From Pegea sp. RAD2-039 (Eukaryota > Chordata > Thaliacea > Salpida > Salpidae), in assembly GCA_034620365.1 (NCBI GenBank), contig JAQGEQ010000363.1, forward strand, positions 124,001 to 188,000: 64,000 nucleotides of DNA, written 5' to 3'. The notes below the pieces were generated by a model. It had not been told where the DNA came from and did not search any database. It worked only from the letters and a program-made list of their open reading frames with translations. The stretch's first letter is position 1. Every line of letters begins with the position of its first letter. Made by a program: the position numbers and the translations under genes. Positions 54,888 through 64,000 of this stretch are shown here, one piece after another.

Positions 54888-57800
54888 ATGAAGATTTTTT
54901 TGCTAAGTTTGTTGGTGGCTTCCACATATCAAATCTGTGCAAGTCATGAAAGTAAGAAATACTATTTTAAAAGCTCGAAATTTGCCGAGGTATTTAGCGA
55001 TTGAAAAACTGCTTCTTGGCAGGTGACGGTAAAGCGACTTATCGCAAATTTGTTCATCAAAGTCCTTCAGAACGAGATGAATTCTTTGTTGGTGACTTTC
55101 CCGATAACTTTGCATGGGGAACATCAACTGCTGCCTATCAAATCGAAGGAGCATGGGATGAAGACGAAAAAGGTGAAAGTATCTGGGATAGGTTCACCCA
55201 CAATGCATCTTGCCGGTAATAACTGTTCAAATGACATCAAAAAACGATCCAAGCTTTGATTTGGTATTTAGACTACTACATGGTCAAAATGGTGATGTAG
55301 CTTGTGATAGCTATCATCAGTTCGACGCAGATTTGAAGTTAATTTTGGAATTGGGACTAAGTCACTATCGCTTCTCCATCTCTTGGTCTCGTCTCTTTCC
55401 TGACGGTCGTAACTCTAGCGGTCCAATCGAAGCAGCAGTAAACTACTACAATGACGTCATTGATAAACTTCTCGAAAATAACGTCACTCCGATGGTCACG
55501 CTTTTCCATTGGGATCTTCCGCAACAACTACAGACAGATTTCAACGGATTTCTTGACTCTGAAGTCCAAGACCATTTTCTGAATTACGCTGACTTCTGCT
55601 TTCGTCAATTTGGAGACCGAGTCCACCACTGGTTCACTTTCAATGAGCCCTATGTCCACTGTACACTTGGTTATGGAATAGCAAGTGCTGCCCCTGGTGT
55701 CCTTCAACCTACTGATGGTCCTTATATATGTGGACACAACATGTTATTGGCCCATGCTAAAGCTTACAGAAGGTTTGTAGATGTCTTAATGCGAGATATT
55801 GATGGAGATTAGAAAGTTGATGTTACAGATTTCATGAGATCTATCCTAGCTTTACTAGCGAGGATTCTCTACCTGCCGGTGTTTCTATTACTTTCAACAC
55901 TAATTACTATGAGCCTCTTGATCCAAATGATGAAAGTCATTGGGATGCTGCTGTACGTCAAATCACAGCAAGTCTCGGATGGTTTGCTCATCCGATCTTT
56001 GTAAATGGGGATTACCCGGAGCTGATGAAAGGTTTTTCGTAGTTTTCTTTTAATTTCAAAAATTGAAAATTGTTAAAATTGAGAAGTTAACCATTGACCA
56101 GGAAGACCTCTTCTTCTTCTTATCTTAAACGTTTGATTACTCAAAACCCACAAAAATTCTTCCATCGACTTAACACCTCAAATATTTATCTTTGATACCA
56201 GTTGTTTTCAACCAGCTCACTAAAATTGTCTACTTAACCAGAGCTGGTCACAAACCACACAAGAAACGAAAGTCTGGTCCGTCTGCCCGAGTTTACTGAA
56301 GAAGAAAAGTCAATGGTCATGGGTAGTGCCGACTTTTTTTGTGTCCAGACCTACACGACTCGATATTCGGCTCCCTTTTACGCGTTCGAAGAGGTTCCCA
56401 CGTTTTTCGGTGATCCGAATGCAAGACCTTATTGTGATACCCGTTGGGAGCAAGCTCCTTGTGAGTAGTTATCTTCAAATAAGATGAATCAACAACCTCT
56501 TTTGCAGCTTCCACTTGGCTCTATGCTGTTCCTTGGGGCTTACGTAGGCTTCTTAACTTCATTAAAGAGGAATACGGTAATCCAACTATTTGGATCACCG
56601 AGAATGGATATGAAGATGATCCTATTTATGATGACTTTAGAAGAATCAATTACTTCAAATCTCACCTAAATGAAGTTTTAAAAGGTTCAGAAGCGTTTGA
56701 GTAATTTCATCCAAGCTCAGATAAAGTTTCGACTTTTTTATTTTACTTTTTTCAATCTAGCGATTTCATTGGACGGAGTTGACGTTTGTGGATACTCTGC
56801 ATGGAGTTTAGTTGATAATTTCGAATGGGCAAGCGGCTACGGACCGAAGTTTGGAATTTATTACGTCGATTTTGAAGATGTTGAAAGAAAACGATACAAA
56901 AAACGATCTTCTGATTGGTCAGTTAAATTTTGTTACGTGACCATTTTTGATACTAAAATGTGAAAAATGAAGGTATCGAGATTTAATTGCAAGGAATGGA
57001 TTTGAAAAATCTTTGAAAGATGACTTTTACTACGGATCATTTAAGTCTAACTTTATCTGGGGAACTACTACATCAGCTTATCAAGTACGTAAAATAACCG
57101 AATTTAATTTTCAATCGAAAAATTTTGTGTTGTTAAATCACAAATTGAGGTGAACAAACTTAAAAACAATTTCTAAAAATTTATTCCCTTTTTGCTTAGG
57201 TAGAAGGCGCATGGAATGCTGATGGTAAAGGACAAAGTATTTGGGACAAATTTACTGAATCCTTAGATTCAAATGGACAAAATGCTGCTGATAGTTATCA
57301 CCAAGTTGATGAAGATATCAAAATCTTAAAAGAACTTCGAGTTAATTTGTTGAGACTAATTTAGGCCACTAAGCTATTTTTCTTACTTTGTGCAGGTGAA
57401 CCAATACAGTTTTTCCATTTCTTGGTCTCGTGTTCTTCCAGAAGGTTCTGGAGATGTAAACGAAGATGGCATTGAATATTATAATCGTCTGATTGACTTG
57501 TTAAAAGAAAATAACATTGAACCGCTTGTTACTTTATATCATTGGGATTTACCTCAGGTTAATGATAAAGTGCAAATTAATATCAGTTAAAAAATGATTG
57601 TTTCATCTTTAGGCACTTCAAGACAAGTATGAAGGTTGGGAAAGTTCAAAGATTATTGAAGATTTCACAGCATACGCAGATTTATGTTTTAAGAGGTTTA
57701 AAGTCCACCTTTCAATCATTTATTTTTTTGTTGACTAACTTTACATAAGCTTTAACAAATGTGAAAACTTTCAAGTAAAGTCAACAGTAAATATAATTAA

Positions 57801-63800: not shown

Positions 63801-64000
63801 TGCTGGTTTTAGTGTTCGGCTGATGGATGGTTTTGAATGGGAAAATGGTTATACAAAGAGAGCTGGTTTATTCCATGTTGACTTCAATGATATAAATAGG
63901 TTTGTTTTTAATAAAAAAATAATTTAACTGATAATTAAATACGAGTTTTCAGACCACGAACAGCTAAAAGCTCAGCTACTTTCTACAAGAAAATGATTAA
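54888..64000 (+). CDS. Four-domain GH1 glycosidase, lactase-phlorizin-hydrolase-like, 3' end beyond window
   Basis: Secreted or membrane beta-glucosidase-family protein. Begins [19 protein letters not shown] (signal peptide), then four tandem GH1 (TIM-barrel) domains; about 2011 codons are in the window and the frame is open at the edge. At least 38 exons, all phase-consistent: 54888-54951, 55023-55215, 55272-55772, 55829-56031, 56242-56460, 56508-56684, 56761-56917, 56973-57084 (joins domain 1 to 2), 57200-57340, 57396-57557, 57613-57695, 58038-58134, 58320-58424, 58469-58555, 58612-58759, 58808-58939, 58986-59111, 59258-59360, 59457-59605, 59658-59834 (joins 2 to 3), 59890-60047, 60101-60298, 60346-60496, 60545-60756, 60808-60891, 60941-61117, 61165-61384, 61626-61854, 61911-62029 (joins 3 to 4), 62237-62400, 62455-62659, 62711-62860, 62911-63026, 63082-63307, 63354-63448, 63501-63723, 63776-63899, 63953-64000. 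Domains 1 and 3 have both catalytic Glu; 2 and 4 lack both. Resembles intestinal lactase (four GH1 domains); substrate unknown. Confidence 0.9.
55072..56972 (+). other. GH1 domain 1, catalytic residues intact
   Basis: [17 protein letters not shown] opens the barrel, then [20 protein letters not shown], the acid/base motif TFNEP (Glu codon at 55645) and the nucleophile motif ITENG (Glu codon at 56600), closing with [16 protein letters not shown] and [14 protein letters not shown]. The part corresponding to four or more exons in other domains is one 501-nt exon (55272-55772), so introns were lost here or gained elsewhere. Predicted active. Confidence 0.88.
57030..59800 (+). other. GH1 domain 2, both catalytic glutamates lost
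   Basis: Fold motifs are kept ([37 protein letters not shown]). The acid/base segment reads WLTMKGP instead of W.TFNEP, with Gly (codon 58075) for Glu. The nucleophile segment reads ITGNG (Gly codon at 59290) for ITENG. FEWTSG remains in the aglycone region. The reading frame is open through 13 exons, so this is a maintained non-enzymatic domain, not a pseudogene. Confidence 0.85.
59890..61860 (+). other. GH1 domain 3, catalytic residues intact
   Basis: [43 protein letters not shown] (Glu codon 60472), ITENG (Glu codon 61294), [16 protein letters not shown]. Source of the 851-bp duplicate at 53192-54042. Predicted active. Confidence 0.88.
61930..64000 (+). other. GH1 domain 4, both catalytic glutamates changed (to Asp), incomplete at window edge
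   Basis: [34 protein letters not shown] (the usual HWD is HFD). The acid/base segment is WITIFDP (Asp codon 62809, and Asn to Phe before it); the nucleophile segment is IFVGDAG (Asp codon 63627). [15 protein letters not shown] closes the barrel. Asp is one carbon too short to serve well in the retaining mechanism, so activity is unlikely. The end of the domain and any membrane anchor lie to the right of the window. Confidence 0.83.

Follow-up and report, generated by a model that had tools for sequence, protein, structure and literature searches.

On a homology-based splice model, seven glycoside hydrolase family 1 (GH1) domains (D1–D7) belong to a single gene of the salp Pegea sp. RAD2-039. 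The gene begins in the 64,000-nucleotide stretch analysed here (the window) and ends beyond its right edge; the window is positions 124001–188000 of contig JAQGEQ010000363.1 (C21) in a 105.7-Mb assembly (GCA_034620365.1). The domains follow the catalytic order live-dead-live-dead-dead-live-live. We consider it probable that the product is a secreted, membrane-anchored digestive beta-glycosidase of the cell surface, resembling lactase-phlorizin hydrolase (lactase, LPH), in which the dead domains would serve as folding and trafficking modules.

A seven-domain GH1 gene

Our own spliced protein-to-DNA aligner supplied the exon models, the query being a hand-joined D6 at first and then a profile for every domain. 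Between domains, exons were connected by eye where consensus splice sites lay, with translation as a check. The D6 query scored 483–1157 on the six other domains and 6–16 on 19 controls (six stretches of reverse strand, ten from other parts of the window and three shuffled sequences). The modelled gene runs on the forward strand from a start codon at window position 54888 to a stop codon at C21:194313, and comprises 63 exons encoding 3481 residues with no internal stop. Of its 62 introns, 61 are GT-AG and one, within D2, is GC-AG. All seven spliced domains scored above the PF00232 cut-off, with E values from 2.1e-78 (D5) to 3.5e-163 (D6). The features are as follows, all on the forward strand (coordinates refer to the window unless prefixed C21).

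54888..54951, +: first coding exon, with the start codon and a signal-like peptide; a 71-bp, phase 1 intron (GTAAGA...GGCAG) leads to the D1 exon
55097..56979, +: GH1 domain 1 (D1); TFNEP 55636-55650, ITENG 56594-56608; PF00232 E=3.3e-143
57040..59743, +: GH1 domain 2 (D2); TMKGP 58066-58080, ITGNG 59284-59298; PF00232 E=5.6e-144
59658..59834, +: single exon shared by the end of D2 and the start of D3, with no linker intron
59825..61792, +: GH1 domain 3 (D3); TFNEP 60463-60477, ITENG 61288-61302; PF00232 E=3.2e-158
61954..63992, +: GH1 domain 4 (D4); TIFDP 62800-62814, VGDAG 63621-63635; PF00232 E=1.9e-117
63953..64000 (C21:187953-188094), +: exon with the end of D4 and the start of D5, crossing the window edge
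C21:188050-189686, +: GH1 domain 5 (D5); PIALP, VTCGF
C21:189933-192102, +: GH1 domain 6 (D6); TFNEP, ITENG
C21:192160-194004, +: GH1 domain 7 (D7); TFNEP, ITENG

A first-pass annotation of the window had placed a GH1 start at 54888 and four GH1 domains with intact frames after it, and had read the same motif pairs in D1–D4; the spliced model recovered all of this and supports the accompanying view of one multi-domain protein that mixes enzyme and pseudoenzyme domains. The description as a four-domain protein did not hold, as the gene passes base 64000 through the exon that starts at 63953 and three more domains follow. Extension to the right, which had been proposed as a way to find more domains or an anchor, yielded D5, D6, D7 and a hydrophobic C-terminus.

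The six inter-domain introns, from D1–D2 to D6–D7, measure 55, 0, 56, 0, 51 and 386 bp, and the exon that opens D7 also encodes the terminal helix of D6 (EIIRNNGF). Because these introns, except perhaps the 386-bp one, are too short to accommodate gene ends, the domains are assigned to one gene. A division of the domains among several neighbouring genes could appeal to that longest intron and to the homology-based nature of the one-gene model, and is nonetheless highly improbable: the D2–D3 and D4–D5 linkers each lie inside a single exon, three others cross introns of just 51–56 bp, and the model contains only one signal-like start, recognised by eye, and one anchor-like end. Separately, a false tandem created by assembly was ruled out because the seven domains are merely 27–53% identical to one another.

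A whole-genome search with PF00232 gave at least 41 exon-level matches, all at C21:177189-194016 or C3:898340-900132; those on C21 make up the seven-domain gene and an upstream fragment. The locus on contig C3 (C3:898205-900135), the sole other GH1 gene in this search, which sets a lower bound, encodes one domain with INEP and TENG kept. A Met stands near the beginning of the domain, that exon shows no signal peptide, and the product is possibly cytosolic, like GBA3.

The acid/base (NEP) and nucleophile (TENG) glutamates are both present in four of the seven domains (D1, D3, D6 and D7), which are predicted to be retaining beta-glycosidases, and both absent from the other three (D2, D4 and D5). 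The active-inactive alternation described in the first-pass annotation is thus an effect of the window edge. We compared 65 near-invariant columns, defined on the live domains and bacterial rows, so that live domains keep 65/65 by definition; D2 keeps 53, D4 50 and D5, the most eroded, 41. All three dead domains also lack N-x-Y and, at the aligned positions, W350 and W417, the two tryptophan positions falling in alignment gaps in D4. Each dead domain remains open over about 415–470 codons, which argues that selection has kept it, and all three presumably still fold into barrels, though without catalysis.

Architecture, likely function and known relatives

The highest-mean-hydropathy 19-mer of the whole protein occupies residues 3461–3479 of 3481 (mean 2.11). 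Since no charged residues lie beyond this hydrophobic end, anchoring would more probably be by a glycosylphosphatidylinositol (GPI) signal or a tail-anchored segment than by the cytosolic-tailed type of anchor found in lactase. The D5–D6 linker, at 65 residues, is the longest (others 19–35) and contains a GGRR dibasic site.

In LPH, domains I and II lack catalytic residues, which agrees with the first-pass annotation. The contrast drawn there between the salp protein and lactase, in which the two active domains come last, dissolves in the longer chain, as D4 and D5 keep neither glutamate and D6 and D7 keep both. LPH is described as having a chaperone-like part at its N-terminus, then two active domains, and a membrane anchor at its C-terminus (PMC6412902; PMC5840672); once cut at R734 and R868, it retains domains III and IV (PMC6412902). 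The long dibasic D5–D6 linker stands where LPH has its cleavable stretch ahead of the active part. The two tandems also differ: LPH has four GH1 domains and the salp protein seven, LPH has a cytosolic tail (PMC6412902) and the salp protein has none, and D1–D3, two of them live, are without an LPH counterpart. The name lactase was absent among the best 60 of 192–193 matches in each of three PDB searches.

From what is observed (the homology-spliced open frame, domain count, motif states, linker length and hydrophobic tail), we infer the following mechanism. D1, D3, D6 and D7 would act at the cell surface, hydrolysing dietary beta-glucosides or comparable sugars, with the gut surface as the likely site of action. 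D2, D4 and D5 would be intramolecular folding and trafficking modules, by analogy with the lactase profragment: D4–D5 would serve D6–D7 as the LPH profragment serves domains III–IV, and D2 may serve D1 or D3. Proteolytic cleavage would occur in the D5–D6 linker, near the dibasic RR, and D1–D3 would form an extra N-terminal block ahead of the lactase-like D4–D7.

Several points weigh against this reading. D1 carries Gln at the glycone-site Asn position, so its activity is less sure than that of the other live domains. The splice model was derived from homology and consensus sites rather than transcripts, and some intron edges may be off. The furin consensus RX[KR]R has no site in the 3481 residues, the D5–D6 RR is not of the furin type, and the D3–D4 linker likewise contains a dibasic KR. 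The hydrophobic C-terminus leaves no room for a cytosolic tail, unlike that of lactase. Finally, the resemblance of D4–D7 to LPH is one of layout and does not imply orthology.

The genome also carries a tunicate mark. A GT2 match lies at C14:72156-72689 (E 4.7e-15) and, 1.8 kb away on the same strand, one to GH6 at C14:74494-74718. Tunicate CesA is a GT2–GH6 fusion, the GH6 domain being reported in 8/8 tunicates and 0/35 other animals, with a second GH6 gene also reported in tunicates (PMC6523144). The two neighbouring matches, a putative tunicate-type CesA fusion, are taken to mark the genome as a tunicate's. Against this, GH6 scored weakly, at 27.5 bits in the genome search, where the cut-off is 27, and 35 bits for the open frame, and one GH6 match was found where the tunicate study describes two genes.

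Tandems of dead and live GH1 domains are already known from molluscs and lactase. The best PDB match, among the matches listed, was 8in1, the akuBGL of Aplysia kurodai, in which a noncatalytic GH1 domain, with a proposed chaperone role, is joined to a catalytic one (PMC10619976); dead domains in tandems of the akuBGL/CjCel1A type have been given the same proposed role (PMC10619976; PMC5840672). In akuBGL and Corbicula CjCel1A, as here, a dead domain is fused to a live one, although each has two domains only; akuBGL domain 1 has lost just the acid/base Glu (TIDDP, TENG), whereas D2, D4 and D5 have lost both. A shipworm protein carries six GH1 domains, of which 1 and 3 lack catalytic residues and 2, 4, 5 and 6 are live; its open reading frame is cDNA-confirmed, it is an active beta-glucosidase on beta-glucans without a transmembrane part, and its authors regard the six-domain architecture as apparently unique and anchorless forms as common among invertebrates (PMC5840672). 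Like the salp protein, it combines numerous GH1 domains, some dead and some live, in a single secreted chain; it differs in having six domains, a dead one first and no anchor, against seven, a live one first and an anchor-like tail. We found no report of a seven-domain GH1 protein in the open-access literature, the shipworm paper being the single hit, and no tunicate multi-domain GH1 protein described in open-access titles and abstract openings on lactase, Klotho, Ciona and ascidians; a seven-domain prediction may already be present in a sequence database.

Alpha- and beta-Klotho likewise consist of GH1 domains with damaged active sites, but they have two domains, neither with both glutamates (in the aligned letters KL1 retains the nucleophile and KL2 the acid/base), as opposed to four of seven here. 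They suggest an alternative role for D2, D4 and D5, as ligand- or substrate-binding modules (parts of a Klotho-like co-receptor or sugar-binding barrels) rather than folding aids; the first-pass annotation had also raised Klotho-like ligand binding. Klotho chains were the next best PDB matches after 8in1 among the matches listed, HWDLP is kept in D2, and the E424–W425 pair is kept in all three dead domains. We nevertheless regard a binding role as unlikely, as the Asn-Glu pair, N-x-Y and the two aligned tryptophans are gone from each dead domain (with the D4 gaps mentioned above), D5 is down to 41 of the 65 columns, and the present analysis yields no receptor partner. Folding and trafficking modules remain our preferred assignment for the dead domains.

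Domain trees and duplication history

Trees were computed from the seven salp domains, the C3 gene, the two akuBGL domains (8in1), KL1 and KL2 of alpha- and beta-Klotho, and bacteria (10 of 80 loci). The 24-sequence tree holds all of these; the 15-sequence set omits KL2 of both Klothos and seven of the bacterial rows; the 11-sequence sets hold the seven domains, the C3 gene and three bacteria, and were run with and without active-site columns. Approximately unbiased (AU) tests covered 12 constraints for each of three data sets. The p values are given below in the order 15-sequence, 11-sequence, 11-sequence without active-site columns, unless fewer are named.

(D1,D3)(D2,D4): 0.026, 0.079, 0.142
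(D2,D4): 0.085, 0.092, 0.109
(D1,D3): 0.40, 0.34, 0.50
(D1,D2)(D3,D4): 0.040, 0.031, 0.194
(D1,D4)(D2,D5)(D3,D6): 0.20, 0.34, 0.46
(D2,D5): 0.92, 0.64, 0.62
(D3,D6): 0.23, 0.34, 0.44
(D2,D4,D5): 0.12, 0.65, 0.57
(D4,D5): 0.037, 0.032, 0.026
(D1,D4): 11-sequence 0.58, without active-site columns 0.58
(D2,D5)(D3,D6): 11-sequence 0.34, without active-site columns 0.44
(D6,D7): 11-sequence 0.105, without active-site columns 0.252
15-sequence only: the six dead domains as one group 0.92; the same group minus D4 0.55; all seven salp domains as one group 0.115

The strongest link among the seven domains is that of D2 with D5, which group in every tree holding both (90–97% ultrafast bootstrap; 97% in the 24-sequence tree). 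D3 joins akuBGL domain 2 in the 24-sequence, 15-sequence and sensitivity trees (69–82%, the highest in the 24-sequence tree) and D7 in the 11-sequence sets (59 and 46%). In the 15-sequence tree, as in seven of eight sensitivity trees, D1 pairs with the C3 gene (23–39%); it pairs with D6 in both 11-sequence trees, and with D4 in the 24-sequence tree (39%) and one sensitivity tree (without Klotho, with D5; 24%). D4 joins D2+D5 in the 11-sequence tree (31%) and, once active-site columns are removed, the C3 gene (19%). Support for deep nodes among animal domains in the 24-sequence tree for the most part falls short of 60% and peaks at 66%. The uniformly low AU values for (D4,D5) indicate that D4 and D5 are not sisters. 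Intron positions, tabulated for the seven domains and the C3 gene, include several common sites but no clear block pattern, the model edges being uncertain.

Two histories of the tandem were weighed on these trees. The first-pass annotation had proposed that an enzyme-pseudoenzyme unit was duplicated, making D1–D2 and D3–D4 copies, and predicted a grouping of D1 with D3 and D2 with D4. Either grouping alone escapes rejection, and the joint topology does so in two of three tests; it is rejected in the 15-sequence test, however, and in each of the three sets its log-likelihood falls 14–24 units short of that of the best tree. D2 sides with D5 instead wherever both are present, and the alternation stops at D4. 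Pair duplication is thus disfavoured, and we consider it quite improbable; the topology named in the same annotation as evidence against it, (D1,D2)(D3,D4), is disfavoured as well. Duplication of a block of three, making D1-D2-D3 and D4-D5-D6 counterparts derived from a four-domain lactase-like ancestor, with later inactivation of D4, fares better: its full topology survives all three tests and includes the strong D2+D5 link, with D1+D4 appearing in the two trees named above. That D1+D4 link, which the history needs, is weak, given the usual placements of D1 with the C3 gene or D6; D3 goes with akuBGL domain 2 or D7, D4 can join D2+D5, and the introns form no clear blocks. We hold this history to be possible but doubtful.

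A deeper question is whether the dead domains form one old lineage. Six of them (D2, D4, D5, akuBGL domain 1 and the two KL1 domains) cluster in the 15-sequence tree (approximate likelihood-ratio test 91, bootstrap 56), and the retained dead domains form one clade in five of eight sensitivity trees (s2, s4, s6, s7 and s8, the last with D4 and D5 left out; bootstrap 36–62). The clade is lost in s1 and s3, from which active-site columns were removed, and in s5, without Klotho, and is absent from the 24-sequence tree, which includes both KL2 domains. D2, alone or with D5, groups with akuBGL domain 1 in six of eight sensitivity trees (58–83%), the two exceptions being those without active-site columns. 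As the clustering disappears with these columns, convergence at damaged active sites is a full alternative.

One column bears on the same question. A DNFEW-to-DGFEW change is common to KL1, D2 and D4, and the Gly is also found in D5 and akuBGL domain 1; the Asn-to-Gly column separates six dead from six live domains without exception, with Asn in 10/10 bacterial rows. The two KL2 domains, which do not have the Gly, were left out of this count. An equally clean column occurs in 4 of 924 six-member sets, two of which are the same split seen from either side, and a looser column rule lets 45 of 924 sets reach that score. We treat the column and the clade as a lead, not a result. That a dead barrel already stood beside a live one in the mollusc-chordate ancestor, with D2, D5, D4, akuBGL domain 1 and KL1 descending from it, is a tentative idea that we would not bet on. 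If true, the salp gene would be a living intermediate whose single chain unites barrels of the lactase and Klotho types, and Klotho would have branched off from a lactase-like polyprotein.

Neighbouring sequences and biological meaning

Upstream of the gene lies an isolated copy of part of D3.

53192..54042, +: 851-bp copy of part of D3 (source 60421-61271), 98.5% identical, introns included

Its 13 differences from the source comprise five synonymous, four nonsynonymous and four intronic changes, and it may be a recent segmental copy, a gene conversion partner or an assembly or haplotype artefact. Elsewhere in the window, positions 36314-38539 (+) hold an intronless 741-residue open frame with SNF2-related helicase domains (Pfam E 8.3e-76), and positions 48439-48996 (+) encode ribosomal protein L7/L12 with an N-terminal extension (Pfam), probably the mitochondrial form. 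Two similar open frames (HRLSFFNLDTLEIRRIKYDL...) lie at 20463-20921 (+) and 26944-27504 (-); the first is without a Pfam match, and both look like the final part of a reverse transcriptase from a non-LTR retrotransposon. G+C content is 0.22–0.30 across 8001-48000 and 0.33–0.40 at 1-8000 and 54001-64000. An Rfam scan of the window gave no match at gathering score. Outside the window, three let-7-like hairpin matches fall within about 570 bases at C42:53785-54357 (-), scoring 43–47 bits against a gathering score of 53.5, and a single scan of viral contigs with a D1 exon found no relative. The assembly gave no match to cox1.

In the seven-domain gene a lactase-like end, with two dead domains, two live ones and then an anchor-like tail, forms part of a longer chain, and it does so in an invertebrate related to the vertebrates. 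On this evidence the layout of lactase may be older than the vertebrates, and dead GH1 domains seem to have been retained as working parts over long periods. The genome search returned this gene with its adjacent fragment and one single-domain GH1 gene, as a lower bound; with so few GH1 genes, the origins of lactase and Klotho would be testable in a tractable chordate. The gene thereby raises the question of whether dead domains act as chaperones, binding modules or both.

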